From Phaeospirillum sp. (GTDB taxonomy: Bacteria > Pseudomonadota > Alphaproteobacteria > Rhodospirillales > Magnetospirillaceae), in NCBI GenBank assembly GCA_030824585.1, contig JAVBXM010000247.1, positions 1 through 59,242 of the forward strand: 59,242 nucleotides of DNA. Direction: 5' to 3'. Made by a program: the position numbers and the translations under genes. Under the pieces are notes generated by a model. The model worked only from the letters and a program-made list of their open reading frames with translations, searched no databases and was not told where the DNA came from. Of the stretch, positions 383 to 11,609 are shown piece after piece (the stretch's first letter is position 1; every line of letters starts with the position of its first letter).

Positions 383-2839
383 TTAGCCCACCTCGGCCAG
401 GGTTTTGAACTCGTGCGCGTCGACCTCGCCGCTGGCCCGCTCGGCCCACGGATCGATCTGCGCGTATTTCTGCGAGAAGACGAAGCGGGAGAAGGCGGCG
501 CGGCGGCCCTCGGCGTCCTCGACCACCCGCTTCTTGACGTAGTCCATGCCGACCCGCTCGATCCACGGCGCGGTGCGCTCCAGGTAGCGGGCCTCCTCGC
601 GGTAGATCTGCATGAAGGCGCCGGAATACTCGATCACCTCGTCCTCGGTGGCGACGCGGACCAGATGGTCGGTGCCGCGCAGCTCGATGCCGCCATTGCC
701 GCCCACCGAGATGTCGTAGCCGGCCTCGACGCAGACCACGCCGATATCCTTGATGGTGGCCTCGGCGCAGTTGCGCGGGCAGCCCGATACCGCCAGCTTG
801 ACCTTGTGCGGTGTCCACGAGCCCCACATCAGCTTCTCCAGCTTGACGCCGAGGCCGGTGGAATCCTGGGTGCCGAAGCGGCACCATTCCGAGCCGACGC
901 AGGTCTTCACCGTGCGCAGTCCCTTGGCGTAGCCGTGGCCCGAGACCAGCCCGGCCCGGCCCAGATCGGCCCACACGCCCGGCAGGTCTTCCTTCTTGAC
1001 GCCCAGCAGGTCGAGACGCTGGCCGCCGGTGACCTTGACGGTGGGAATCTTGAACTTGTCCACCACGTCGGCGATGGCGCGCAGCTCCGTGGGATTGGTC
1101 AGCCCGCCCCACATGCGGGGGATCACCGAATAGGTGCCGTCCTTCTGGATGTTGGCGTGGACGCGCTCGTTGATGAAGCGGCTCTGGTAATCGTCGACGT
1201 ATTCCGCCGGCCAGGCGCACAGCAGGTAGTAGTTCAGCGCCGGGCGGCACTTGGCGCAACCATCGGCGTGGCGCCAGCCGAGCGCCCCGCGCAGCGCGTC
1301 CTGGGTCTTGAGCCCCTGGGCGAGGATGGCCTTGCGCACCTCGTCATGGGAGAGATCGGTACAGCCGCACATGCCGGCGGCCTTGGCCTCCACCACCTCG
1401 CCGGTGACGTGGGTCAGGATGGCCTGGACCACGGAAGCGCACTGGCCGCACGACGCGCTGGCCTTGGTGTGGGCCTTGACCTCGTCCAGGCTGGTCAGGC
1501 CCTTTTCGGTGATGGCCTTGACGATGGCGCCCTTGGAGACGCCGTTGCAGCCGCAGACCTGGGTGTCGTCGCTCATGGCGGCGACGCTGACGCCGCCCGC
1601 GCCCTTGCAGGTGGTGTCGGCATAGGCCTGGCCGAAGATCATGCGGTCGCGGATGGCGGCCACGTCGGCTTTTTCCCGCATCAGCTGGAAGTACCACGAG
1701 CCGTCGGCCACGTCGCCGTACATGACGGCACCCACCACCTTGTCGGCGCGGATCACCAGCTTCTTGTAGATGCCCCGGGCCGAGTCGCGGTAGACCAGTT
1801 CCTCGTCGGCTTCGTCCTGGGCGGCCAGTTGGCCGGCCGAGAACACGTCGATGCCGGTGATCTTGAGGCGGGTGGACAGCGGCGGCGTCACGTAGCTGGA
1901 ATCGTCGCGGCCGGCGAGACGCGAAGCACAGACCTTGGCCTGTTCCCAGATGGGGGCCACCAGGCCGAAAATCTGGCCGCGATGCTCGACGCACTCGCCC
2001 ACCGAGTAGATGGCCGGGTCCGAGGTGGCCATGTCGTCGCCCACCTCGATGCCGCGGTTGATGTCCAGGCCGCAGGCCTTGGCCAGGTCCACGTTGGGGC
2101 GGATGCCGATGGCCACCACCACCAGATCGGCGGGAATCTCGCGGCCGTCGGCCAGCTTGACGCCGGTGGCGCGGCCGTCCTCCTCGCCCATGATCTCCTC
2201 GGTCTGGCCCGAGGTGAAGAAGTGCAGGCCGCGCTCGGTCAGGTCCTTCTGCAGCAGGCCGCCGGCCTCGACGTCCAACTGGCGCTCCATCAGGGTGGGC
2301 ATCAGGTGGACCAGGGCGACGGGCATGCCGCGCCGCCGCAGGCCCCAGGCGGCCTCCAGGCCCAGCAGGCCGCCGCCGATCACCACGGCGCGCTGCTTGG
2401 CCTCGGCGGCGGCGAGCATCTTGTCCACGTCGGCGATGTCGCGGAAGGCGACCACACCGGGCAGTTCCAGGCCGGGCAGCGGCGGCATCAGCGGCTTGGA
2501 GCCGGTGGACAGCAGCAGCCGGTCGTAGGGCACCACCTGTCCGGCGGCCGAGGTCACCGTCCTGGCCGCGCGGTCGATGGCCACCACCGGATCGCCGGTG
2601 TGGAGCGTGATGCCGTTGTCGGCGTACCAGGCGCGCGGGTTGATGACGATGTCGTCCACCTGCTTCTCGCCGGCCAGCACCGAGGACAGCATGATGCGGT
2701 TGTAGTTGGGGTGGGGCTCGGCGCCGAACACCGTGATGTCGTAGCGGGCCGGGGCGATGGCCAGCAATTCCTCGACGGTGCGCATGCCGGCCATGCCGTT
2801 GCCGATGACGACCAGCTTCTGGCGGGGAACAGCATTCAT
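383..2839 (-). CDS. nirB: Nitrite reductase (NADH) large subunit NirB
   Basis: Catalytic subunit of cytoplasmic assimilatory nitrite reductase (nitrite + 3 NADH to ammonium). In 818 residues it shows an N-terminal FAD site (VVIGNGMAGM), an NAD site (VVIGGGLLGLEAA, about 145), a BFD-like [2Fe-2S] domain with CxC...CxxC near residues 428-465, a second Cys-rich block (CGC near 490, CAKC near 527), and the sirohaem/[4Fe-4S] ligands CVGSEWC (about 646) and CPRNC (about 687). The open frame runs further upstream, but that part lies over nasS in another frame. The ATG at 2839 overlaps the nasS stop by 4 nt (ATGA), giving translational coupling. Confidence 0.95.
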   Translation of the reverse strand: MNAVPRQKLVVIGNGMAGMRTVEELLAIAPARYDITVFGAEPHPNYNRIMLSSVLAGEKQVDDIVINPRAWYADNGITLHTGDPVVAIDRAARTVTSAAGQVVPYDRLLLSTGSKPLMPPLPGLELPGVVAFRDIADVDKMLAAAEAKQRAVVIGGGLLGLEAAWGLRRRGMPVALVHLMPTLMERQLDVEAGGLLQKDLTERGLHFFTSGQTEEIMGEEDGRATGVKLADGREIPADLVVVAIGIRPNVDLAKACGLDINRGIEVGDDMATSDPAIYSVGECVEHRGQIFGLVAPIWEQAKVCASRLAGRDDSSYVTPPLSTRLKITGIDVFSAGQLAAQDEADEELVYRDSARGIYKKLVIRADKVVGAVMYGDVADGSWYFQLMREKADVAAIRDRMIFGQAYADTTCKGAGGVSVAAMSDDTQVCGCNGVSKGAIVKAITEKGLTSLDEVKAHTKASASCGQCASVVQAILTHVTGEVVEAKAAGMCGCTDLSHDEVRKAILAQGLKTQDALRGALGWRHADGCAKCRPALNYYLLCAWPAEYVDDYQSRFINERVHANIQKDGTYSVIPRMWGGLTNPTELRAIADVVDKFKIPTVKVTGGQRLDLLGVKKEDLPGVWADLGRAGLVSGHGYAKGLRTVKTCVGSEWCRFGTQDSTGLGVKLEKLMWGSWTPHKVKLAVSGCPRNCAEATIKDIGVVCVEAGYDISVGGNGGIELRGTDHLVRVATEDEVIEYSGAFMQIYREEARYLERTAPWIERVGMDYVKKRVVEDAEGRRAAFSRFVFSQKYAQIDPWAERASGEVDAHEFKTLAEVG

Positions 2840-4059
2840 GTGAGGTCTCCTGATTCGGTCTTTGCCGTCGGGGGCAAGGCGGTGACGCGGGAGGTGAAGG
2901 GATCGAAGGTCAGCCCGCCCAGCATCAGGTCCGGCCCCATCTCCATGGGCCGGGTGGCCTTCAGCAGGCTCCAGGGGGCGGCATGCCCGCCCTCGGTCTT
3001 GTAGTCGGTCAGCGGGACCCGCAGGCCCAGCGCCAGGGCGGCCACCCGGTAGAGGTCGGGACGGAACACGGCTTCGGCGGCGGCACGCGAATCCAGGGCG
3101 GCGGGCGCCATGTCCCAGCGCTTCATCATTTCCAGGTACCACATGGCCTGGGAACGCCAGGGGAAGTTGGCGGCCAAGGCGTGGAAGGTCAGCAGGTCCC
3201 TGGGCAGGCCGTGTTCGCCCAGCAGCGGCGCCATCAGGGCTTCGGCCGGGGCGTTGACGTATTGCGGCTGGGCCAGCAGCTCGGCCAGTTCGCAGCGGTT
3301 GTCGTCGCACCATTGGGCGGCGGAGATCAGCGCCTGCAGCACCGCCAGATGGGTTTCCGGATGGGTCTCGGCCCAGCCCTGGGTGACGGCGAAGACCTTT
3401 TCCAGCCGGCCGGCGAAGATGTCGCGGCTGGTCGCCGCGATGCGGCCGAGATTCATGCGCGCCGCCAGGCTGCCCCAGGGCTCGCCGACGCAATAGCCGA
3501 CGATGTTGCCCGCCGACAGGAAGGAGATCATCTGGGGCGGCGGCACCACGGTGAAGGCGACGTCCCGCTGGGTATCGATGCCCGCCGCTTCCATCCACAG
3601 GCGCAGCTCGGCGGCGTGGGGGGAGTAGGGATAGACGGTGGCGAAGGTCATGGGCGGGCGGCCGCAGGCCTTGTCGGCCTCGATGACCCGCTTCAGGGCG
3701 CGGGCCGAGACGGGGCGGGCGGCCATGGATTCGGGATCGGCGGCCTCCATGCGCTCCCACAGGGCGTTGCCGATGGCGATGGTGTTGCCGCCCAGGTTCA
3801 GCGCCATGCCGGCCGCCATGGGCACTCGCAGCGGCGACAGACCCAGGCTCATGGCCAGCGGCATGGGGGCCAGCATCTGGGCGCCGTCGAGCGCGCCCAC
3901 CGCCACCTTGTCGCGGATCGAGGCCCACGAGGCCTCGCGGGACAGTTCGACGTCGAGGCCCATCTCGGCGAAGAAGCCGCGCTCCTTGGCCACCACCAGG
4001 GGGGCCGCATCGATCAGCGGGACGATACCGAGCTTCAGACGGGTCTTTTCCACTCTCAT
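2836..4059 (-). CDS. nasS: Nitrate/nitrite sensor NasS (cytoplasmic NrtA-like protein)
   Basis: A 407-residue NrtA/CmpA-family nitrate-binding protein without any signal peptide: the chain opens MRVEKTRLKLGIVPLIDAAP, straight into the binding fold. That is the mark of NasS, which in other proteobacteria binds NasT and releases it when nitrate or nitrite binds. The frame is open for 62 more codons upstream, but those codons run through the leader hairpins, so the ATG at 4059 with GAGGG upstream is preferred. It is the first gene of the nirBD operon and lies behind a NasT-type leader, while nasT itself lies about 7 kb away. The alternative, a lipid-anchored or soluble transporter binding protein, is less likely because nrtA is present separately. 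Confidence 0.85.
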   Translation of the reverse strand: MRVEKTRLKLGIVPLIDAAPLVVAKERGFFAEMGLDVELSREASWASIRDKVAVGALDGAQMLAPMPLAMSLGLSPLRVPMAAGMALNLGGNTIAIGNALWERMEAADPESMAARPVSARALKRVIEADKACGRPPMTFATVYPYSPHAAELRLWMEAAGIDTQRDVAFTVVPPPQMISFLSAGNIVGYCVGEPWGSLAARMNLGRIAATSRDIFAGRLEKVFAVTQGWAETHPETHLAVLQALISAAQWCDDNRCELAELLAQPQYVNAPAEALMAPLLGEHGLPRDLLTFHALAANFPWRSQAMWYLEMMKRWDMAPAALDSRAAAEAVFRPDLYRVAALALGLRVPLTDYKTEGGHAAPWSLLKATRPMEMGPDLMLGGLTFDPFTSRVTALPPTAKTESGDLT

Positions 4060-4250
4060 CTCTTGGTTCCCTCGGCCAAACGAAAAAGGCGCTCCGCGGA
4101 ATGCCCGGCGCCGGCCCCGCAAGGGGAAGCGCCGATTTTTCCGTGGAACGCCTTTGTTCCTTCGCCCAATGGCCGCCTCGTCGCGGCCGGTGGGCTTTTT
4201 CAGCGGCGGGGGCCTCGCCATTGAGGCCCGGTGCCGCTTTCGCAAACTCG
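4060..4250 (-). promoter_or_regulatory. NasT (ANTAR) antitermination leader RNA of nasS-nirBD
   Basis: About 190 nt of transcribed leader between the sigma-54 promoter and nasS. The first hairpin at 4210-4229 has a perfect 7-bp stem and loop AATGGC; the second at 4145-4160 is GGAAC-AAAGGC-GTTCC. Both hexaloops have A at position 1 and G at position 4, the signature of ANTAR-protein targets. The second hairpin competes with the terminator at 4083-4155. By family knowledge, NasT binding the hairpin pair would allow read-through; binding here is inferred. Confidence 0.85.
4083..4155 (-). terminator. Conditional intrinsic terminator in the nasS-nirBD leader
   Basis: On the minus strand the arm AAAGGCGTTCCACGGAA (4155-4139) pairs with TTCCGCGGAGCGCCTTT (4101-4085) and is followed by a U tract (4087-4083). 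Its 5' arm includes the loop and 3' stem of the GGAAC-AAAGGC-GTTCC hairpin at 4145-4160, so the two structures exclude each other. Confidence 0.85.
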
Positions 4251-4260
4251 CTTGCTGCTT

Positions 4261-4276
4261 TGCATACCCCGTGCCA
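4261..4276 (-). promoter_or_regulatory. Sigma-54 promoter of nasS-nirBD
   Basis: The minus strand reads TGGCAC-GGGGT-ATGCA, a -24/-12 element with correct spacing and one mismatch from TGGCAC-N5-TTGCW. The first leader hairpin starts about 32 nt downstream of its -12 end. Confidence 0.75.
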
Positions 4277-4316
4277 AGGCCCGAATGGCGGTTTGGCGGA
4301 GATCGGCCGGCAAGTG

Positions 4317-4368
4317 TGCCTAAATTTTAGGCTGACAAAAATTCACTGTTCAAATTTTAATCTCAAGC
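4317..4368. promoter_or_regulatory. Paired AT-rich motifs upstream of the nasS promoter
   Basis: TGCCTAAATTTTAGGC (starting 4318, nearly a full palindrome) and CAAATTTTAATC (4351-4362, reaching the end of the upstream ABC ATPase gene) lie about 40-90 bp upstream of the -24 element. Similar pairs stand before the other two sigma-54 promoters at 7632-7679 and 10840-10890. They may bind the enhancer-binding activator, perhaps NtrC; that is inference. Confidence 0.5.
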
Positions 4369-5157
4369 CGCGTGGCTGGCTGGGGCGTGGCCGTGCAGGA
4401 AGCGTAGAACCTCGGCCCGCAGGTGGTTGTAATGGGGGTCGGCGGCCAGATCGACGCGGCGGCGCGGGCGTTCCAGGTCGATGTCGAGGATCTGGCCGAT
4501 GGTGGCGGCCGGGCCGTTGTTCATCATCACGATGCGGTCGGACAGCAGCACGGATTCGTCCACGTCGTGGGTGATCATGATCACCGTGTTGCCCAGGCGG
4601 TGGTGGATTTCCATCAGGCTGTCCTGCAGGTGGGCGCGGGTGAGTGCGTCCAGCGCCCCGAACGGTTCGTCGAGCAGCAATACCTTGGGCTCCATGGCCA
4701 GGGCGCGGGCGATGCCGACCCGCTGCTTCATGCCGCCCGAGATCTCGCCCGGCTTCTTGTCCTTGGCCTGGTCCATGCGCACCAGGGCGAGATTGTGCAT
4801 GGTCCAGTCGTGGCGCTCGGCCTTGGTCTTGGTTCCGCCCAGCACCTTGTCCACCGCCATGCGCACGTTGTCGTAGACGGTGAGCCAGGGCAGCAGGGAA
4901 TGGTTCTGGAACACCACGGCGCGGTCGGGGCCGGGGGAGTCCACCTCGCGGCCTTCCAGCAGCACGCCGCCCTCGGTGGCCTGCAGCAGGCCGGCGACGA
5001 TGTTGAGCAGGGTGGACTTGCCGCAGCCGGAATGGCCGATCACCGAGATGAACTCGCCCTTGTCGATGCGGAGCCTCACGTCGTCCAGGGCGCAGAACGA
5101 TCCCTTGTCGGTCTTGAAGGTGATGCCGACGTTCTCGATGGAGAGATAGACGCTCAT
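4363..5157 (-). CDS. nrtD: Nitrate ABC transporter ATP-binding protein
   Basis: Cytoplasmic ATPase of the nitrate/nitrite importer. In 264 residues: Walker A GHSGCGKST (41-49), Q loop near 84, ABC signature SGGMKQ (140-145), Walker B LLLDEP (160-165) and H-loop ITHD. It belongs to the NrtC/NrtD/NasD group and lacks the C-terminal binding-protein domain of NrtC, so nrtD or nasD is the better name. It follows the permease by 15 nt with an AAGGA ribosome site and is the last gene of the three-gene operon. Confidence 0.9.
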   Translation of the reverse strand: MSVYLSIENVGITFKTDKGSFCALDDVRLRIDKGEFISVIGHSGCGKSTLLNIVAGLLQATEGGVLLEGREVDSPGPDRAVVFQNHSLLPWLTVYDNVRMAVDKVLGGTKTKAERHDWTMHNLALVRMDQAKDKKPGEISGGMKQRVGIARALAMEPKVLLLDEPFGALDALTRAHLQDSLMEIHHRLGNTVIMITHDVDESVLLSDRIVMMNNGPAATIGQILDIDLERPRRRVDLAADPHYNHLRAEVLRFLHGHAPASHAA

Positions 5158-5172
5158 GGCGGGTGATCCTTC

Positions 5173-6033
5173 TTAGCTCGAGAATTTCTGGCCGACGAAG
5201 GCGATCATGCGGTCCAGCATGAAGCCCACCAGGCCGACATAGATCAGGGCCAGGATGATCTCGCTCATCAGCGAGCTGTTCCAGGCGTCCCAGATGAAGA
5301 AGCCGATGCCCACGCCGCCGATCAGCATCTCGGCCGCCACGATGGCCAGCCAGGAGAGGCCGATGCCGATCTTCAGGCCGGTGAAGATGTAGGGAACGGT
5401 GGCGGGGATGACGATCTTGAAGAAGAACTCGATGGGCGACAGGCGCAGCACCATGGCGACGTTGCGGTAATCCTGGGGAATGTTGCGCACGCCGACGGCG
5501 GTGTTGAGGATGATCGGCCACACCGAGGTGATGAAGATCACGAAGATGGCGGAAGGGTCGGCCTGGCGGAAGGCGGCGAGCGAGATGGGCAGCCAGGCCA
5601 GCGGCGGCACGGTGCGCAGTACCTGGAAGATGGGGTCCAGCGCGCGGTAGGCCATGGTGCTCTGGCCGATCAGCACGCCGAGGAACACGCCGGCCACCGC
5701 CGACAGGCTGAAACCGACGGCGACGCGCTTGAGCGAGGCGAAGAGGTGCCAGAACAGGCCCTTGTCCACGCCGCCGTGATCGAAGAACGGATCGACGATC
5801 AGCGGCCAGGTGTCGCGCACCACCTTGGCCGGGCCGGGCAGCATGGCGTTGGGGCCGGAACAGGCCAGTTGCCACAGGCCCAGCACCACCGCCAGGCCGA
5901 GGACGGGCGGCAGCACCCGGCCGGCGATCTCGCGGGCCCTCTTGGCCGCCGCCCCGGGGGGCGGGGCCGGCTTGGCCGGGATGGATTGGGCCGGATCGGC
6001 GGTGAGGGCGGTGAGTTTTCCAACCATGGTCAT
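5173..6033 (-). CDS. nrtB: Nitrate ABC transporter permease
   Basis: Inner-membrane subunit of the nitrate importer, 286 residues. It has an N-terminal Pro/Ala-rich cytoplasmic tail, a first membrane segment (VLPPVLGLAVVLGLWQLA), then a BPD_transp_1 domain with the EAA-type region that contacts the ATPase (around the stretch IPQDYRNVAMVLRLSP), and several further membrane segments. The frame is open upstream through nrtA in another phase; the ATG at 6033 is chosen because GGAGG lies 5 nt before it. It starts 14 nt after the nrtA stop. Confidence 0.9.
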   Translation of the reverse strand: MTMVGKLTALTADPAQSIPAKPAPPPGAAAKRAREIAGRVLPPVLGLAVVLGLWQLACSGPNAMLPGPAKVVRDTWPLIVDPFFDHGGVDKGLFWHLFASLKRVAVGFSLSAVAGVFLGVLIGQSTMAYRALDPIFQVLRTVPPLAWLPISLAAFRQADPSAIFVIFITSVWPIILNTAVGVRNIPQDYRNVAMVLRLSPIEFFFKIVIPATVPYIFTGLKIGIGLSWLAIVAAEMLIGGVGIGFFIWDAWNSSLMSEIILALIYVGLVGFMLDRMIAFVGQKFSS

Positions 6034-6047
6034 GTCATCCTCCGTCG

Positions 6048-7358
6048 TCAGACCGCCGCGCGCTTGATGGCGAGGCTTTTCAGGTAGGCGGTGGGGTTGG
6101 CGGGGTCGAAGGTCTTGCCGTCGAAGAACGTCTCGATGCCGCGCGAGGTGGAGGTGGGGATCTGCGCCGCGGCCACGCCCAGGTCCTTGGCGGCGGCCCG
6201 CCAGATGTCCTCGCGGTTGACCTGGGCGATCAGCGCCTTGGTGTCGAGTTCCATGGGCTGGTAGCCCCAGCGCTGGTTCTCGGTGAGGAACCACAGCTCG
6301 TGGCTCTGGAAGGGATAGGAGGCGAAGTCCTTCCAGAACTTCATGACGTGCGGGCTCTTTTCCACCAGGCGGCCGTCGCCGTAATTGATGAAGCCCGAGG
6401 CGCGCGCCACGATGTCCTCGACCGGCACCTTGAACCACTCGCGGCCCGAGACGATCTTGCACATCTCCTCGACGTTGGCCTCGCACCACTGGGCGGCTTC
6501 CATGACCGCCATGGTGACGGCCCTGGCCGCCTTGGGGTTCTTTTCCACCCAGTCGGCGCGCATGGCCAGGCTCTTTTCCGGATGGTCCTTCCACAATTCG
6601 CCGGTGGTCACCGCCGAGAAGCCGATGCCCTGGTGGGCCAGCTGGTCGTTCCACGGCTCGCCGACGCAGAAGGCCTCCATGGTGCCCACCTTCATGTTGG
6701 CCACCATCTGGGGCGGCGGCACCACGATGGTCGAGACGTCCTTGTCCGGGTCGATGCCGTTGGCGGCCAGCCAGTAGCGCAGCCACATGTCGTGGGTGCC
6801 GCCGGGGAAGGTCATGGCCACCTTGATCTCCTTGCCCGCCGCCCGGCCCTTGGCCAGCGCCGGCCCGAAGGCCTTGGCCTCGGTGGTCAGCTTCAGCTCC
6901 TTGTAGGCGTTGGCGACCGAGATGCATTGGCCGTTGGTGTTGAGGCGCGCCAGGATGTTCATGGGCACCTTGGCGTTGTTCTTGGTGATGCGGCCCGAGC
7001 TCATCTGGTAGGGCATGGGGGTCAGGATATGGGCGCCGTCGATGCCGCCGCCGGCCGAGCCCAGTTCCAGATTGTCCCGTGTGGTGCCCCACGAGGCCTG
7101 CTTCAGGACCTGGACGTCGGGCATGCCATGCTTGGCGAAGAAGCCCTTTTCCTTGGCGATGATCAGCGGCGAGGAATCGGTCAGCGCGATGAAGCCGAAC
7201 ACGGCGCCCTTGACCTCGGGGGCGTCGCCGGCGGCGGCCCAGGCCCCGCCGGGCAGGGCGGCGCGGGCGGCGGCCAGCACGGCGGCGGAGGCCAGGACGG
7301 AACGGCGGGAGATACCCTTGGTCGGCTTGGTGCTGTTGCTGCTGGTCATGGTCGTCAT
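6048..7358 (-). CDS. nrtA: Periplasmic nitrate-binding protein NrtA, Tat-exported
   Basis: Substrate-binding protein of the nitrate/nitrite ABC importer, 436 residues. The N-terminus carries a twin-arginine signal (SRRSVLA, Arg18-Arg19) followed by an Ala-rich hydrophobic stretch ending near AWA, so it is exported folded. The mature part is the NrtA/CmpA fold and is clearly related to the cytoplasmic NasS at 2836-4059, with shared segments such as the APMPxxM and VGEPW-type blocks. First gene of nrtABD behind its own sigma-54/NasT leader. A second ATG lies 3 codons inside the start, a minor uncertainty. Confidence 0.93.
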   Translation of the reverse strand: MTTMTSSNSTKPTKGISRRSVLASAAVLAAARAALPGGAWAAAGDAPEVKGAVFGFIALTDSSPLIIAKEKGFFAKHGMPDVQVLKQASWGTTRDNLELGSAGGGIDGAHILTPMPYQMSSGRITKNNAKVPMNILARLNTNGQCISVANAYKELKLTTEAKAFGPALAKGRAAGKEIKVAMTFPGGTHDMWLRYWLAANGIDPDKDVSTIVVPPPQMVANMKVGTMEAFCVGEPWNDQLAHQGIGFSAVTTGELWKDHPEKSLAMRADWVEKNPKAARAVTMAVMEAAQWCEANVEEMCKIVSGREWFKVPVEDIVARASGFINYGDGRLVEKSPHVMKFWKDFASYPFQSHELWFLTENQRWGYQPMELDTKALIAQVNREDIWRAAAKDLGVAAAQIPTSTSRGIETFFDGKTFDPANPTAYLKSLAIKRAAV

Positions 7359-7553
7359 GTCCTTCGTTGGTCAGAACGAAAAAGGGGTCAAAACGCAAAA
7401 AAGGCGTTCCGCGGCGTCACGCATCCCATGCAGGGGGGAGCGTAATTCCGTGGAACGCCTTTGTTCCTTCTCGGCCGGGCCGGCATCGTCGCCGGAATGG
7501 CCGTCTGTCATTTCGTGCGGCGGGACCTCGCCATTGAGGAGTTCCGCCGTCGC
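7359..7553 (-). promoter_or_regulatory. NasT (ANTAR) antitermination leader RNA of nrtABD
   Basis: Hairpin 1 (7526-7539, with an outer stem reaching 7518-7549) has loop AATGGC closed by CCTC/GAGG. Hairpin 2 (7452-7467) is GGAAC-AAAGGC-GTTCC. The two are separated by about 60 nt containing another GC-rich fold, a wider gap than in the narK leader. The terminator at 7397-7462 overlaps hairpin 2. Same architecture as 4060-4250 and 10650-10772. Confidence 0.85.
7397..7462 (-). terminator. Conditional intrinsic terminator in the nrtA leader
   Basis: The minus strand has AAAGGCGTTCCACGG pairing with CCGCGGAACGCCTTT, followed by a run of six U (7402-7397). The 5' arm overlaps the GGAAC-AAAGGC-GTTCC hairpin at 7452-7467, so terminator and ANTAR hairpin are mutually exclusive. 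Confidence 0.85.
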
Positions 7554-7564
7554 ATGTCAGACAA

Positions 7565-7580
7565 AGCAACCATCGTGCCA
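7565..7580 (-). promoter_or_regulatory. Sigma-54 promoter of nrtABD
   Basis: The minus strand reads TGGCAC-GATGG-TTGCT, an exact match to the -24/-12 consensus TGGCAC-N5-TTGCW. The predicted start lies about 12 nt downstream, immediately before the first leader hairpin. Confidence 0.88.
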
Positions 7581-7631
7581 GAAGGGAATTTGACCAATTC
7601 AGGGATTTTGCTGCACCGCGGTACGGTGTGT

Positions 7632-7679
7632 ATGCCTATATTTTGATCACAATCAAATCACAGATTAAAATATAGGCAA
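7632..7679. promoter_or_regulatory. Inverted pair of AT-rich motifs upstream of nrtA promoter
   Basis: TGCCTATATTTT on the plus strand (from 7633) and the same 12 bases on the minus strand (up to 7678) form an inverted repeat about 52-100 bp upstream of the -24 box. Both continue with RATC. Likely activator site for the sigma-54 promoter; the protein is not known from sequence. Confidence 0.55.
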
Positions 7680-7680
7680 T

Positions 7681-9375
7681 TCATCGCAGGACCAGGGCGG
7701 CCAACAGCCCGGCGGCCAGCAGGGCCGAGACGGTCTGCCAGAACCGTACCGGGTCGCGGTCGTAGAGCGGCGGCTTCCTGAGGGGCGGCGGCTCCACCAG
7801 GGCGGAGCCGTGCTCCAGCTCCAGCACGAACTCGATGACGTCGCCCTGGCGGTCGGCGGGGCTGGGCGACAGGGCGCGGGTGATGGCCGCTTCCAGCCAG
7901 GACGGCAGGTCGGGCCGCACTTGGGTCAGGGCCGCCGGGCGGCCGAAGCGCGGCCGCGAGAACGGCTCGATCTCGCCATGAGGATAGGCGCCGGTGAAGG
8001 CGCGGAACAGGGTGGCGGCCACGGCGAACAGGTCCGAGGCCTCGGCCCCCGCCTCCCCGGCGAACAGTTCGGGGGCCATGAAGCTGGGAGTGCCGGGGAT
8101 GTCCTCGGCGCGGAACTCCTCCAGCCTGGGTATCCGGGCGACGCCCAGGTCGAGCAGGCGCAGCGAGCCGCCCTTTTCCAAGATGATGTTGTCGGGCTTG
8201 ATGTCGCGGTGGATGATCCCGGCCCGGTGCAGGGTCGCCACCGCCTTGCCCAGCTTGATGGCGATGTCCAGGCCCTCGTCCAGGCCCAGCGGCGGCTTGC
8301 GCTTCAGGCGGGCCTCCAGGGTCTCGCCCTCGTAGAACGGCATCACCGAGTAAAGCCGCGACTGCCGGCCGGGGGCGGGCTCCAGCACTTCGGCGATCCA
8401 CGGGCTGCGCACCCTTGCGGCGATCCATGCCTCGCGCAGGAAGGCGGATTTGTAGGTGGCCTCGCTGGCGACGCGCGGATGGGGGAACTTCAGCACCACC
8501 TGCCGCCCGTCGGTCTCGTCGCGCCCCAGGAACAGGCGGGAATAGCGGCCGTCGGAGAGTTGCGAGTCCAGGCGGTAGCCGTCCACCGACTCGCCCGCCC
8601 GGGGCAGGTCGCCGATGGACAGCGGCGCCAGGGCGAGGCCCAGGCTGTCCTGGTCCATGGCCGGCACGTCGATGACGTCCAGCACCAGGGCGCTGGCATT
8701 GTCGTCGCCCCCCGCCGCCAGGGCGGCGGCCACCAGGTCGTGGGCGGTCTCCTCGGGGGCCGAGCGCCGGCCCAGGATGGCGGCGATCTCGGGATCGGCC
8801 AGGGCGCCGTGCACCCCGTCGCTGCACAGCATCAGCCGGTCATGGGGCGAGACCGGGTGGTGGGCGTAGTCCAGCCGTACCGAATCCTCCAGGCCGATGG
8901 CCCGCAGCAGCACATGGGACAGGCCGGCCCGGCTCATGACGTGGTCCTGGGTCAGCCGCGACAGATGCTCGCCGGACAGGCGGTAGAGCCTTGAATCGCC
9001 CACGTGCAGAACATGCAGGGTGCGCCCCATGACCACCAGGCCGGTGAAGGTGCAGGCCATGCCGGCCAGGGTGGTGTCGGTGCGGCCCACGGTGTGGACC
9101 CAGCGGTTCAGCGTGTCGAGCACCCGCGTGGCGTTGCGCTGGGGCCCCAGGGTCTCGGGCTGCTCGAAATAGCCGTCGAGGAAGCCGCGCACCGTCAGTT
9201 CGGCGGCCTCGCGCCCGCCCTTGGCGCCGCCCATGCCGTCGGCCAGGGCGGCCAGGACGCCGCGCCCGGCGATCTGGCCGTCGCTGCCCAGGCAGGCGCC
9301 GGCGAAGTCCTCGTTGCGTTCGCGCCGCCCCGTTTCGCTGGCGACGCCGACGCGAACGCGCAAGGACCCCGCCAT
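7681..9375 (-). CDS. PP2C phosphatase / Ser-Thr protein kinase fusion, membrane-anchored
   Basis: 564 residues with opposed activities in one chain. Residues 1-235 are a PP2C-type phosphatase (RNED, ADGMGG, GDSRLY, CSDGVH, GGDDNAS metal-binding motifs all present). Residues about 270-520 are a Hanks-type kinase with Lys in VVLKF (about 295), HRDIKPDN (about 390), DLG in place of DFG, and GTPSFMAPE. The glycine loop (SDGRYSRLF) is degenerate. A single C-terminal membrane segment (about 544-563) would anchor it with the catalytic domains in the cytoplasm. The ATG overlaps the narK stop (TGATG), so it is coupled to the nitrate transporter. Related kinase genes sit beside nitrate/nitrite assimilation genes in Pseudomonas; the target is unknown to me. 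Confidence 0.88.
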   Translation of the reverse strand: MAGSLRVRVGVASETGRRERNEDFAGACLGSDGQIAGRGVLAALADGMGGAKGGREAAELTVRGFLDGYFEQPETLGPQRNATRVLDTLNRWVHTVGRTDTTLAGMACTFTGLVVMGRTLHVLHVGDSRLYRLSGEHLSRLTQDHVMSRAGLSHVLLRAIGLEDSVRLDYAHHPVSPHDRLMLCSDGVHGALADPEIAAILGRRSAPEETAHDLVAAALAAGGDDNASALVLDVIDVPAMDQDSLGLALAPLSIGDLPRAGESVDGYRLDSQLSDGRYSRLFLGRDETDGRQVVLKFPHPRVASEATYKSAFLREAWIAARVRSPWIAEVLEPAPGRQSRLYSVMPFYEGETLEARLKRKPPLGLDEGLDIAIKLGKAVATLHRAGIIHRDIKPDNIILEKGGSLRLLDLGVARIPRLEEFRAEDIPGTPSFMAPELFAGEAGAEASDLFAVAATLFRAFTGAYPHGEIEPFSRPRFGRPAALTQVRPDLPSWLEAAITRALSPSPADRQGDVIEFVLELEHGSALVEPPPLRKPPLYDRDPVRFWQTVSALLAAGLLAALVLR

Positions 9376-10649
9376 CAGACGCGGGCGCCCGACGCCGCGC
9401 CCCAGGTGGTGCGCCAGCGCCGCTTCACCCCGAACAGGGCGATCCAGCCCACCGCCACCAGGGCGCTGAAGAACAGGAAGCCGATACTGAAATTGCCGGT
9501 CATTTCCTTGGACATGCCCAGAGTCTTGGCCAGGAAGAAGCCGCCGATGCCGCCAAAGCAGCCCACCAGCCCCGTCATGGTTCCGATCTCGCCACGGAAA
9601 CGCTGCGGGATCAACTGGAACACGGCGCCGTTGCCCATGCCCAGGCACAGCACGCCCACCGAGAACACCACCACCGCCAGCCAGGCCTCGCGCGGCATGT
9701 CCAGCATGGCCCAGCCGGCCACCGCGCCGGTGCCGCCGCTGGCGGGGGCGGGGCCGGCCCCCAGGAAGGCGATGCCGAGATAGGTGACCGAGACGATGGC
9801 GAACAGCGCCAGCAGGGTGCGGATGCCGCCGATGCGGTCGGCCACGTAGCCGCCCACCGGGCGGAAGCACGAGCCGAACATCACGACGATGGCCACCATC
9901 AGGCCGGCGGTCACGCCGGACACGTGGTACTGGATGGTGAAATACAGCGGCAGCGAGTTGGCCAGGCCGACGAAGCCGCCGAAGGTGATGAAGTAGAAGA
10001 ACATGAACCACCAGCTGTCGCGGTCGGCGAAGATGGCCTTGTACTTGGCGAGCGTCACCGGCGAGCGGGCTCCCGGCGCCTCCTTGGAGAACACCACGTA
10101 GAACAGCAAGGTGGGGATCAGGGGGATCAGCAGGGTGGCGAGCGCGGTCTGCCAGCCGTATTTCTCGGCCAGGGACGGGATGATCAGGGCGTCGAGCACC
10201 GTGCCCATGTTGCCGGCGCCGGCGATGCCCATGACGATGCCCTGGTACTGGGGCGGATACCACTTGCTGGCCTGGGGCAGGGCCACGGCGAAGGAGGCGC
10301 CGGCCAGGCCGAGGACCACGCCCAGCAATTCCACCTCCAGCGGCGAATGCAGGCCGAAGGCCCAGGCGTAGGCGATGCCGGCGATGACGACGACCTGGGC
10401 GACGGTGCCGGTGATCTTGGCGCCGAACTGGTCGCAGAAGACGCCCATGGGCACCCGCAGGATGGCGCCGGCCAGGATCGGGATGGCCACCATGGTGAAC
10501 CTCTCGCCCACCGGAATGCTGAGCTCGGCGGCGATATAGACGATCAGCGGGCCGAGCGTGACCCAGGCCATGAAGCTGAAGTCGAAATAGAGGAACGAGG
10601 CCAGCAGTGTCGGCCAGTGCCCCGCCTTCTTGAAATCCTTGAAATTCAT
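9375..10649 (-). CDS. nasA: NarK/NasA-type nitrate/nitrite transporter (MFS)
   Basis: 424-residue polytopic major-facilitator protein of the nitrate/nitrite porter family, with about 12 hydrophobic segments and the nitrate-signature glycine stretches (AGAGNMGT near the middle, GCFGGIGGFF toward the C-terminus). It would import nitrate across the inner membrane, parallel to the ABC system nrtABD. The frame is open 59 codons further upstream through the leader hairpins; the ATG at 10649, preceded by AAGGA, is the natural start. First gene of a two-gene operon with the phosphatase-kinase. Confidence 0.9.
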   Translation of the reverse strand: MNFKDFKKAGHWPTLLASFLYFDFSFMAWVTLGPLIVYIAAELSIPVGERFTMVAIPILAGAILRVPMGVFCDQFGAKITGTVAQVVVIAGIAYAWAFGLHSPLEVELLGVVLGLAGASFAVALPQASKWYPPQYQGIVMGIAGAGNMGTVLDALIIPSLAEKYGWQTALATLLIPLIPTLLFYVVFSKEAPGARSPVTLAKYKAIFADRDSWWFMFFYFITFGGFVGLANSLPLYFTIQYHVSGVTAGLMVAIVVMFGSCFRPVGGYVADRIGGIRTLLALFAIVSVTYLGIAFLGAGPAPASGGTGAVAGWAMLDMPREAWLAVVVFSVGVLCLGMGNGAVFQLIPQRFRGEIGTMTGLVGCFGGIGGFFLAKTLGMSKEMTGNFSIGFLFFSALVAVGWIALFGVKRRWRTTWGAASGARV

Positions 10650-10772
10650 CGCTTGCGATCCTTCCAGCAAAAAAGGCGCTCCGCGAACGGACGGATCTCC
10701 CCCGGCGGGGCCGTCGATTCGTGGAACGCCTTTGTTCCGGGCCGGACCTCGTCCTTGAGGCCGGCCGATTTG
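10650..10772 (-). promoter_or_regulatory. NasT (ANTAR) antitermination leader RNA of nasA-kinase operon
   Basis: The most compact of the three leaders. Hairpin 1 (10740-10766) has a GGCCGG/CCGGCC outer stem, CTC/GAG inner stem and loop AAGGAC; hairpin 2 (10723-10738) is GGAAC-AAAGGC-GTTCC, one nucleotide away. Both loops fit A1/G4. The terminator at 10669-10734 competes with hairpin 2. Confidence 0.87.
10669..10734 (-). terminator. Conditional intrinsic terminator in the narK/nasA leader
   Basis: The minus strand pairs AAAGGCGTTCCACGAA with TTCGCGGAGCGCCTTT and ends in six U (10674-10669). The 5' arm shares AAAGGCGTTCC with the second ANTAR hairpin at 10723-10738. Confidence 0.85.
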
Positions 10773-10783
10773 CCATAGGGAAA

Positions 10784-10799
10784 AGCAATGGGCGTGCCA
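10784..10799 (-). promoter_or_regulatory. Sigma-54 promoter of nasA-kinase operon
   Basis: The minus strand reads TGGCAC-GCCCA-TTGCT, an exact -24/-12 consensus. The first leader hairpin begins about 18 nt downstream of its -12 end. Confidence 0.88.
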
Positions 10800-10839
10800 G
10801 CCCGGGAACGGGAGGAATGGTGCCAATCATTCATTGGAA

Positions 10840-10890
10840 ATGCATAAATTTTAATCCGCAATCAGGATGCGGATTAAAAAAGCGGCATGC
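10840..10890. promoter_or_regulatory. Inverted pair of AT-rich motifs between nasT and nasA
   Basis: TGCATAAATTTTAATCCGCA (plus, from 10841) faces TGCCGCTTTTTTAATCCGCA (minus, from 10889), giving AATCCGCA/TGCGGATT as inner inverted repeat with a 7-base gap. It lies 41-90 bp upstream of the -24 box, as at the other two nitrate promoters. The inner arms could also act as a terminator after nasT (stem then A/T run). Confidence 0.5.
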
Positions 10891-11468
10891 TAGCCGAGCA
10901 GTTCGGCGGCCTCGATGATCTTGTTGGCGATGTCGATCAGCCGCTGCTTCTGGTCCATGGCCATGCGGCGCATCAGACGATAGGCCTCGTCCTCCTCGAC
11001 CTTGCGCCGCTTCATCAAGATGCCCTTGGCCTTCTCGATCTGCTTGCGCTCGGCCAGGGTGGTCCGCGCCTTGTCCAGTTCGCCGCGCAGGGACTGGAAC
11101 TGGGCGAAGCGGGCGATGGCCACGTCGATCACCGGACGGACCCGGTCGGGCTTCAGCCCGTCGACCACATAGGCGGAAACCCCGGCCTCCACGGCGGCCT
11201 TGATGGTTTCCGGCTTGCCGTCCTGGGCGAACATCACCACCGGGCGGCCCTGCTCGATACCGACCCGGCGCATGTCCTCCAAGGTGTCGCGGTCGGGGGA
11301 ATCGATGTCGACGATGATCACGTCGGCGGCCAGTTCCGCCACCCGGGCGGGCAGCCCGGCGCCGCTGGCGAACACCGCCACCACGGTGAAGCCGTCGGCT
11401 TCCAGCGCGTCGCGGACCATTTCCGCCCGGTCCCGCTCATCGTCGACCACGATGACCCGCAATCCCAT
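10890..11468 (-). CDS. nasT: ANTAR-domain antiterminator NasT
   Basis: 192-residue RNA-binding response regulator. The N-terminal receiver domain has D9-D10 and the phospho-acceptor position D54 (IIVDID), and the C-terminal ANTAR domain (about 130-190) begins ERKQIEKAKGILMKR and ends KIIEAAELL. By family knowledge, NasT binds a two-hairpin RNA target and prevents termination, and NasS holds it inactive without nitrate. Three such targets lie in this window upstream of nasS-nirBD, nrtABD and nasA. The ATG at 11468 begins the receiver fold directly; a longer open frame upstream adds a non-conserved 33-residue stretch. No leader stands before nasT itself. Confidence 0.92.
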   Translation of the reverse strand: MGLRVIVVDDERDRAEMVRDALEADGFTVVAVFASGAGLPARVAELAADVIIVDIDSPDRDTLEDMRRVGIEQGRPVVMFAQDGKPETIKAAVEAGVSAYVVDGLKPDRVRPVIDVAIARFAQFQSLRGELDKARTTLAERKQIEKAKGILMKRRKVEEDEAYRLMRRMAMDQKQRLIDIANKIIEAAELLG

Positions 11469-11609
11469 GACCCGTCCCCGTTCCTGTGTTCCCGGAAAAC
11501 AAGCATGCATCATGCCAGTTGCCTCGCGGGTCGCTCCTCTCGGGAACTTAGGCGATCGGCCAGGCATTGCAATGGCCGACCGGGGTGATACCCTCGAAGC
11601 GGAAAGCGA

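Follow-up and report, generated by a model that had tools for sequence, protein, structure and literature searches.

The 59,242 nucleotides of Phaeospirillum sp. DNA analysed here (contig JAVBXM010000247.1, referred to as the window; the genome that carries it comprises 4.94 Mb in 262 contigs) contain three nitrate operons, each of which is probably controlled by a leader RNA that is started by sigma-54 and antiterminated by NasT. On the minus strand, on which all features described below are located, nasT is followed by leader 3 with narK and a gene for a PP2C phosphatase/kinase, by leader 2 with nrtA, nrtB and nrtD and finally by leader 1 with nasS, nirB and nirD; the leaders are numbered such that leader 1 belongs to nasS-nirB(D), leader 2 to nrtA(BD) and leader 3 to narK-kinase. 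Control of three sigma-54 operons by NasT-type antitermination had been proposed in an original prediction made from the DNA sequence alone, and it is well supported by the anatomy of the leaders, by folding and by comparison with relatives. The new part is a third hexaloop hairpin in two of the leaders and, with it, the presence of two leader geometries for a single NasT. Presumably this one protein reads both of them, and one lies outside the linker rule established for EutV. No description of a leader with three hexaloops was found in the literature searched, the coverage of which mostly did not extend to subscription papers.

The three leaders share a common outline. Each begins with a sigma-54-type site (TGGCAC-N5-TTGC), which the pattern scan found exactly at leader 2 (7566-7580) and leader 3 (10785-10799) and with one mismatch at leader 1 (4262-4276). 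By itself this pattern is weak and not significant in the window: the three sites are the only ones with up to one mismatch, and 5.6 are expected by chance in this GC-rich DNA. GG and GC are in place at all three leaders. The hairpin P2 (GGAAC-AAAGGC-GTTCC), revealed by exact sequence scan and by folding, is identical in leader 1 (4145-4160), leader 2 (7452-7467) and leader 3 (10723-10738); with up to two mismatches the pattern has a shuffle mean of 0.02, and no exact copy was found elsewhere in the genome. Two hairpins with A at loop position 1 and G at position 4 (A1/G4 hexaloops) are present in every leader, namely P2 and a first hairpin detected by folding. The latter is called P0 in leader 1 (inner stem CCTC-AATGGC-GAGG at 4213-4226, seven pairs in total) and in leader 2 (the same inner stem at 7526-7539), and P1 in leader 3 (CCTC-AAGGAC-GAGG at 10747-10760, the stem continuing outward to about ten pairs with a bulge). 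The full combination of an A1/G4 hexaloop hairpin inside a terminator, a second hexaloop upstream and a sigma-54 site was called three times in the window and not once in 30 dinucleotide shuffles, both strands included, which bears out the predicted set of three nitrate leaders. A genome-wide search with a model named R2 returned the three leaders, the next best match having E = 0.27 (the remaining weak matches were not inspected singly). A fourth candidate on contig C182, found with a model R1 built from P2 and the terminator of the three window leaders (E 0.027), was rejected; it is a long palindrome with neither U tract nor hexaloop. The idea of one module repeated before each operon is therefore inexact: leaders 1 and 2 have three hexaloops and leader 3 has two. 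The spacing between the two hairpins recognised originally is 49 nt in leader 1, 58 nt in leader 2 and 6 nt in leader 3.

The terminators of the leaders (4083-4155, 7397-7462 and 10669-10733 for leaders 1 to 3, by folding) are each built from the last 11 letters of the P2 hairpin. This stretch, AAAGGCGTTCC, pairs in 11 of 11 positions with the 3' arm, which runs into 5, 6 and 6 U at 4083-4087, 7397-7402 and 10669-10674. P2 and the terminator 5' arm share these bases and are, in the folding models, mutually exclusive: in full-length folds the terminator pairs stand at 0.74-1.0 and P2 at 0.0, folds that end before the terminator 3' arm have P2 at 0.94-1.0, and forcing P2 costs 13.4, 9.2 and 12.6 kcal/mol. 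The exclusivity is further supported by covariation between loop and terminator. A set of 36 leaders from the family was selected by the exact P2 pattern alone; in the 35 for which a terminator was found, base 3 of the P2 loop and its terminator partner are A-T in 23, C-G in 11 and G-T in one. The leader L062 has no terminator called by the script, and its base 3 is mismatched. We take this covariation to mean that the pairing has been kept by evolution while A1 and G4 of the loop were left alone. It also bears on a view in which the hairpins separate the operons as terminators or insulators and are not controlled by NasT. Each leader does follow directly on the preceding operon, but every terminator has a sigma-54 site of its own upstream and uses bases of P2, and neither the hexaloop identity nor the loop-terminator covariation is expected to persist in a plain terminator, so that this view is very improbable.

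The linkers of 49-58 nt in leaders 1 and 2 contain the third hexaloop hairpin, here called Pm, which was identified by folding and alignment. Its loop is closed by C-G and reads GACGAG in leader 1 (inner hairpin GGCCGC-GACGAG-GCGGCC at 4171-4188, within an outer helix at 4164-4195) and GACGAT in leader 2 (CCGGC-GACGAT-GCCGG at 7480-7495, within 7472-7503). Pm tops a longer helix, the foot of which is only 3 nt (leader 1) or 4 nt (leader 2) away from P2. Leader 3 has no Pm; its two hairpins are separated by 6 nt. An alignment (A4) was made of 33 of the 36 family leaders, the narK leader and L062 being left out because their linkers are short and L059 because it has no P0 pattern; the letters of P0 in this alignment are partly set by the choice of rows, those of Pm are not. 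The closing C-G pair and loop A2 of Pm are present in 33/33 leaders, a pyrimidine at position 3 and G4 in 32/33 each. Two of four pairs of the Pm stem change on both sides (10 + 5 = 15 cells), and the three-helix structure beats all 500 shuffles and every slid version both in cells paired and in covariation score, with the reservation that the covariation counts are inflated by kinship among the sequences. R-A-N-G hexaloop hairpins (closing C-G, at least four pairs, within 110 nt upstream of P2) occur 61 times in the 36 leaders, compared with a shuffle mean of 0.8 and a maximum of 4, and five types of control loops or closing pairs gave 0, 1, 2, 1 and 0 hairpins. Two such upstream hexaloops are found in 26 leaders, one in nine and none in one. 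Two family leaders recognised later (L210 and L214) are outside all these counts.

The proteins required for such a switch are encoded in the window. NasT (10890-11468; 192 amino acids from an inner ATG, or 225 from an alternative upstream ATG at 11567) combines a receiver and an ANTAR domain (PF00072 and PF03861) and is the sole ANTAR protein found in the genome by profile search; its gene lies 90 bp ahead of the promoter site of leader 3. The alignment with EutV and with Rv1626 extends across nearly the full protein, that with NasR across the ANTAR portion. Where EutV has its conserved receiver lysine, NasT has Asp103, a residue nearly invariant among 13 NasT proteins; this makes control by phosphorylation unlikely, and regulation through NasS fits better than regulation through a kinase. 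The partner NasS (2836-4059) is an NrtA-like sensor (PF13379, with matches to the NrtC C-terminal domain and to NrtA in the PDB) in which no export signal was seen by eye. The NasS-NasT pair is thus complete. We propose that each operon starts at its sigma-54 promoter, probably activated by NtrC, and would be attenuated by the intrinsic terminator in its leader. By analogy to the protein family, NasS would hold NasT when nitrate is absent, and the leader would terminate; in the presence of nitrate NasS would release NasT, which would bind the hexaloops and hold P2 so that the polymerase can pass. On the nasS and nrtA leaders NasT would encounter P0, Pm and P2 as three successive hexaloops, on the narK leader only two, and Pm might serve as a relay that links the distal P0 to P2, by which the long linker would be tolerated. 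Since nasS itself is located behind a NasT-dependent terminator, free NasT would raise the level of the protein that inhibits it, and this negative feedback could set the basal level. The gene order in relatives points to such a feedback, in which NasS would be made only when NasT is free: among 18 loci that show both nasS and a leader, nasS is behind the leader in 15 and between nasT and the leader in three.

The proposed role of NtrC is consistent with the presence of an NtrC gene in the genome (722.9 bits, above the cut-off) and with the upstream regions of the leaders. When a consensus taken from P. denitrificans was used (PMC5424462), an NtrC-like site with up to two mismatches was detected upstream of 16 of 28 leaders, compared with about seven expected in shuffles, and a palindrome of approximately TGCCTA-N5-TAGGCA, which resembles the NtrC consensus of alphaproteobacteria, recurs about 69 and 98 bp before the promoters in many family leaders. 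This hints at control by NtrC. A third layer, represented by an FNR-type box upstream of leader 2 (TTGATTGTGATCAA at 7643-7656), was considered and rejected; the match is exact there and has at least two mismatches in the other leaders listed. The two-layer logic of nitrogen status and antitermination cannot be claimed as a novelty, contrary to the original prediction, because Ntr control plus antitermination has already been described for nasF of K. oxytoca (PMC5424462).

Leaders of this kind are not confined to the window. Within the family they were detected in 29 of 55 genomes by R1 and in 30 by R2; with R2, 25 genomes have none, 23 have one and six have two, and only the genome of the window has three. 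A class-wide search with R2 matched three of 387 genomes, including two family members; as it scored only 11 candidates per genome, it was insensitive and does not indicate absence. Gene orders determined by tblastn at 20 loci include a single long operon of the type nasT-leader-nrt-nasS-nirB in several cases and nasT-leader-nrt-leader-nasS-nirB in those genomes of the genus that have two leaders; the window has an additional narK-kinase unit with its own leader in front, between nasT and nrtA. The six nasS leaders cluster together in a leader tree (support 99/94), from which we conclude that this leader arose once in the genus, and the nrtA leader of the window falls with the nrt leaders. In the relatives the number of leaders grows with the splitting of the operon. 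No origin is claimed for the narK leader, which sits on a long branch of unsure placement; derivation by loss of Pm is possible. The kinase is present with more than 50% identity in five other family genomes, of which four (L056, L210, L211 and L213) have narK and the kinase after nirB, while the contig of the fifth shows nothing else.

A scan for NasT in named genomes, considered for the best 80 loci, extended the comparison beyond the family. A fixed-rule script called a leader candidate downstream of nasT at 65 of these loci and none at 15. Of the 74 loci outside the family, 26 have a canonical hexaloop only near P2, 12 only far from it and seven at both places; single loci have a near G1 loop with a far canonical one (Inquilinus limosus), a near canonical loop with a far G1 one or a near G1 loop only, 11 have neither and 15 no leader. 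These class counts are approximate, as the script sometimes mispicks P2 (for example in L082, L102, L128 and L145). Three leaders of the Sulfuricella type or from Hydrogenophilales have A1/G4 in all three loops. The triple form is common in the family and scattered elsewhere. In the leaders L132, L135, L136, L141, L143, L147, L149, L152-L154 and L156, mostly from Rhizobium or Agrobacterium, the far canonical hexaloop lies 26-39 nt from P2, and the linker of those that were folded usually forms a hairpin without a hexaloop. The far-only and the triple leaders taken together indicate that NasT leaders live with spacings beyond the rule deduced for EutV.

A function of Pm as a relay between P0 and P2 is possible, though somewhat short of an even chance; we favour it, and it fits the successive-binding model of PMC8934654. 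Nearly as likely is that the NasT sites are P0 and P2 only (P1 and P2 in leader 3) and that Pm is a plain spacer which folds the linker away and brings P0 beside P2. This possibility gains its weight from position 1 of the Pm loop, which breaks the A1 rule: leaders 1 and 2 of the window both have G there, and among the 33 aligned family leaders 23 have G, nine have A and one has C. It also agrees with the 12 leaders outside the family, mostly from Rhizobium and Agrobacterium, in which a canonical hexaloop is 26-68 nt away from P2 and the vicinity of P2 has none, and with the linker hairpin without a hexaloop of that kind in several folded far-only leaders. A spacer, however, need not conserve A2, G4 and the closing pair of the Pm loop to the extent described above, and the Sulfuricella-type leaders have A1/G4 even in all three loops. 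Less probable, perhaps one chance in several, is a working pair of Pm and P2 with EutV-like spacing, in which the distal P0 is a recruiter or a relic. The distance of only 3-4 nt between the outer helix of Pm and P2 speaks for such a pair, as does the fact that the proximal-only arrangement is the commonest class outside the family (26/74). On the other hand, P0 has A1 and a covarying stem and is found in most leaders that were selected by P2 only (its loop identity in A4 being partly a matter of row choice), and a class of distal-only leaders exists.

Returning to NasT-dependent antitermination with Pm as a relay, several points weigh against it. Binding of NasT and read-through at these leaders are predicted from sequence and folding models. 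A1 of the loop matters for EutV and NasR (PMC3369931, PMC3369936, PMC7496416), and Pm with its G1 may accordingly bind NasT poorly. The double upstream motif is rare outside the family (one of 33 leaders in a strict count). EutV tolerates little variation, in that linkers of 3 or 14 nt strongly reduce induction and 20 additional nt abolish antitermination in vitro (PMC3369931, PMC8934654), and alteration of hairpin HII in Paracoccus had little effect under nitrate (PMC5424462). The NtrC-like sites of leaders 1 and 2 are weak, with two mismatches each, and leader 3 is not among the 28 leaders of that set. Finally, P2 is invariant in the alignment and provides no evidence for or against its pairing; this constancy is partly by construction, as the leaders were picked by the exact P2 pattern. 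Covariation in relatives, the lack of which was named originally as a ground for refutation, speaks in favour, since it is found for the pairings of P0, Pm and the terminator.

At gathering scores no Rfam family matched in the window. Below the gathering score of 70, P11 (RF00625) matched leader 3 with 22.8 bits and leader 2 with 19.0 bits, both end to end, and did not match leader 1; when 7.5 kb were searched, the E values were 0.089 for leader 3 and 0.81 for leader 2, and leader 3 reached 0.0026 when the search was confined to 221 bases. These sub-threshold matches extend over 10675-10811 and 7403-7592. The narK RNA (RF03032, gathering score 43.2) matched leader 3 with 18.1 bits (E 0.2) and left leaders 1 and 2 unmatched. 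The Rfam consensus of both families contains a sigma-54-like site. P11 resembles the window leaders in this site, in a hexaloop hairpin and in GGAC-AAAGGC-GTCC within the terminator, and differs from leaders 1 and 2 by the lack of a middle hairpin in its model; the narK RNA resembles leader 3, which precedes narK, in the sigma-54-like site, a hexaloop hairpin and the P2 sequence. Among 397 genomes of the phylum, P11 scored above the cut-off in 17 (L170-L186). All 17 have nirB directly downstream and a P2-like hairpin, 15 have a first hexaloop on the right strand and 14 have a kinase of the window type upstream. By these features P11 looks like the Pseudomonas branch of the NasT leaders described here. 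P11 is known as the small RNA responsible for learned avoidance by C. elegans and is also known to regulate the nitrogen assimilation operon of strain PA14 (PMC10977744, PMC12080996); a literature search for NasT together with P11 gave only papers unrelated by title. Should P11 be the same element, then what has been studied as a trans-acting small RNA would be first of all a cis-acting leader. Terminated leaders might have an additional role in trans, either as small RNAs or as decoys through which NasT is shared among the three operons. The anatomy and position that they have in common with P11, described as a small RNA, point in this direction, but nothing in the sequence requires action in trans, and we regard it as rather improbable. 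The joint proposal of three NasT-leader geometries, of Pm as a relay, of a EutV linker rule that concerns the nearest loop and of P11 as an attenuated leader of the same switch is put forward tentatively, at slightly less than even odds.

The genes behind the leaders are in part other than originally assigned. The third operon had been read as nasA-kinase; the kinase is correct (a PP2C phosphatase/Ser-Thr kinase fusion at 7681-9375, by profile matches), but the gene before it (9375-10649) encodes not NasA but a NarK-type nitrate/nitrite transporter of the major facilitator superfamily, with a match to TIGR00886 (237 bits) below the cut-off of 312. Leader 2 is followed by an nrtA-like gene for a nitrate-binding protein (6048-7358, PF13379), by the permease gene nrtB (5173-6033, TIGR01183 above cut-off) and by an nrtD-type ATPase gene (4363-5157, TIGR01184 above cut-off). 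Downstream of nasS are nirB (383-2839, TIGR02374 above cut-off) and a gene for a nirD-like small subunit (43-378), the latter recognised by eye.

Several ANTAR leaders per locus are already known, as is the combination of nitrogen control with antitermination. The assumption of the original prediction that only single leaders occur elsewhere does not hold: the eut locus of E. faecalis has four EutV leaders (PMC3369931), Desulfotomaculum acetoxidans at least 13 matches in six units (PMC3369936) and B. diazoefficiens several predicted NasT hairpins (PMC6759348). In P. denitrificans and Bradyrhizobium diazoefficiens a NasS-NasT pair is present as in the window and NasT binds leader RNA (PMC3795266, PMC5424462, PMC6759348); whereas nasT and nasS of P. 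denitrificans are cotranscribed and precede the leader, nasS of the window is behind one. Descriptions of ANTAR antitermination assume two hairpins and a strict linker, and searches were designed accordingly; an actinobacterial survey retained only linkers in the range of 2-25 nt (PMC8164766). Such searches would overlook leaders in which a hexaloop is distal or a third one is present. The structure paper on EutV leaves open why two hairpins are needed (PMC8934654), and the presence of both geometries under one NasT in one genome would be a natural test of this question. The family also shows how a regulon can grow, as each new piece of the split operon carries its own leader. The window leaders share with the ANTAR dual-hexaloop leaders (EutV/eut, NasR/nasF, AmiR/amiE, NasT/nas) the A1/G4 hexaloops with closing C-G, a P2 that shares bases with the terminator and an encoded ANTAR regulator. 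Leader 3, with a linker of 6 nt compared with 5-12 nt in E. faecalis eut, is of the ordinary dual-hexaloop kind. Leaders 1 and 2 differ from it by three hexaloops, with the canonical one 49 and 58 nt away from P2 and a G1 hexaloop at a distance of only 3-4 nt.

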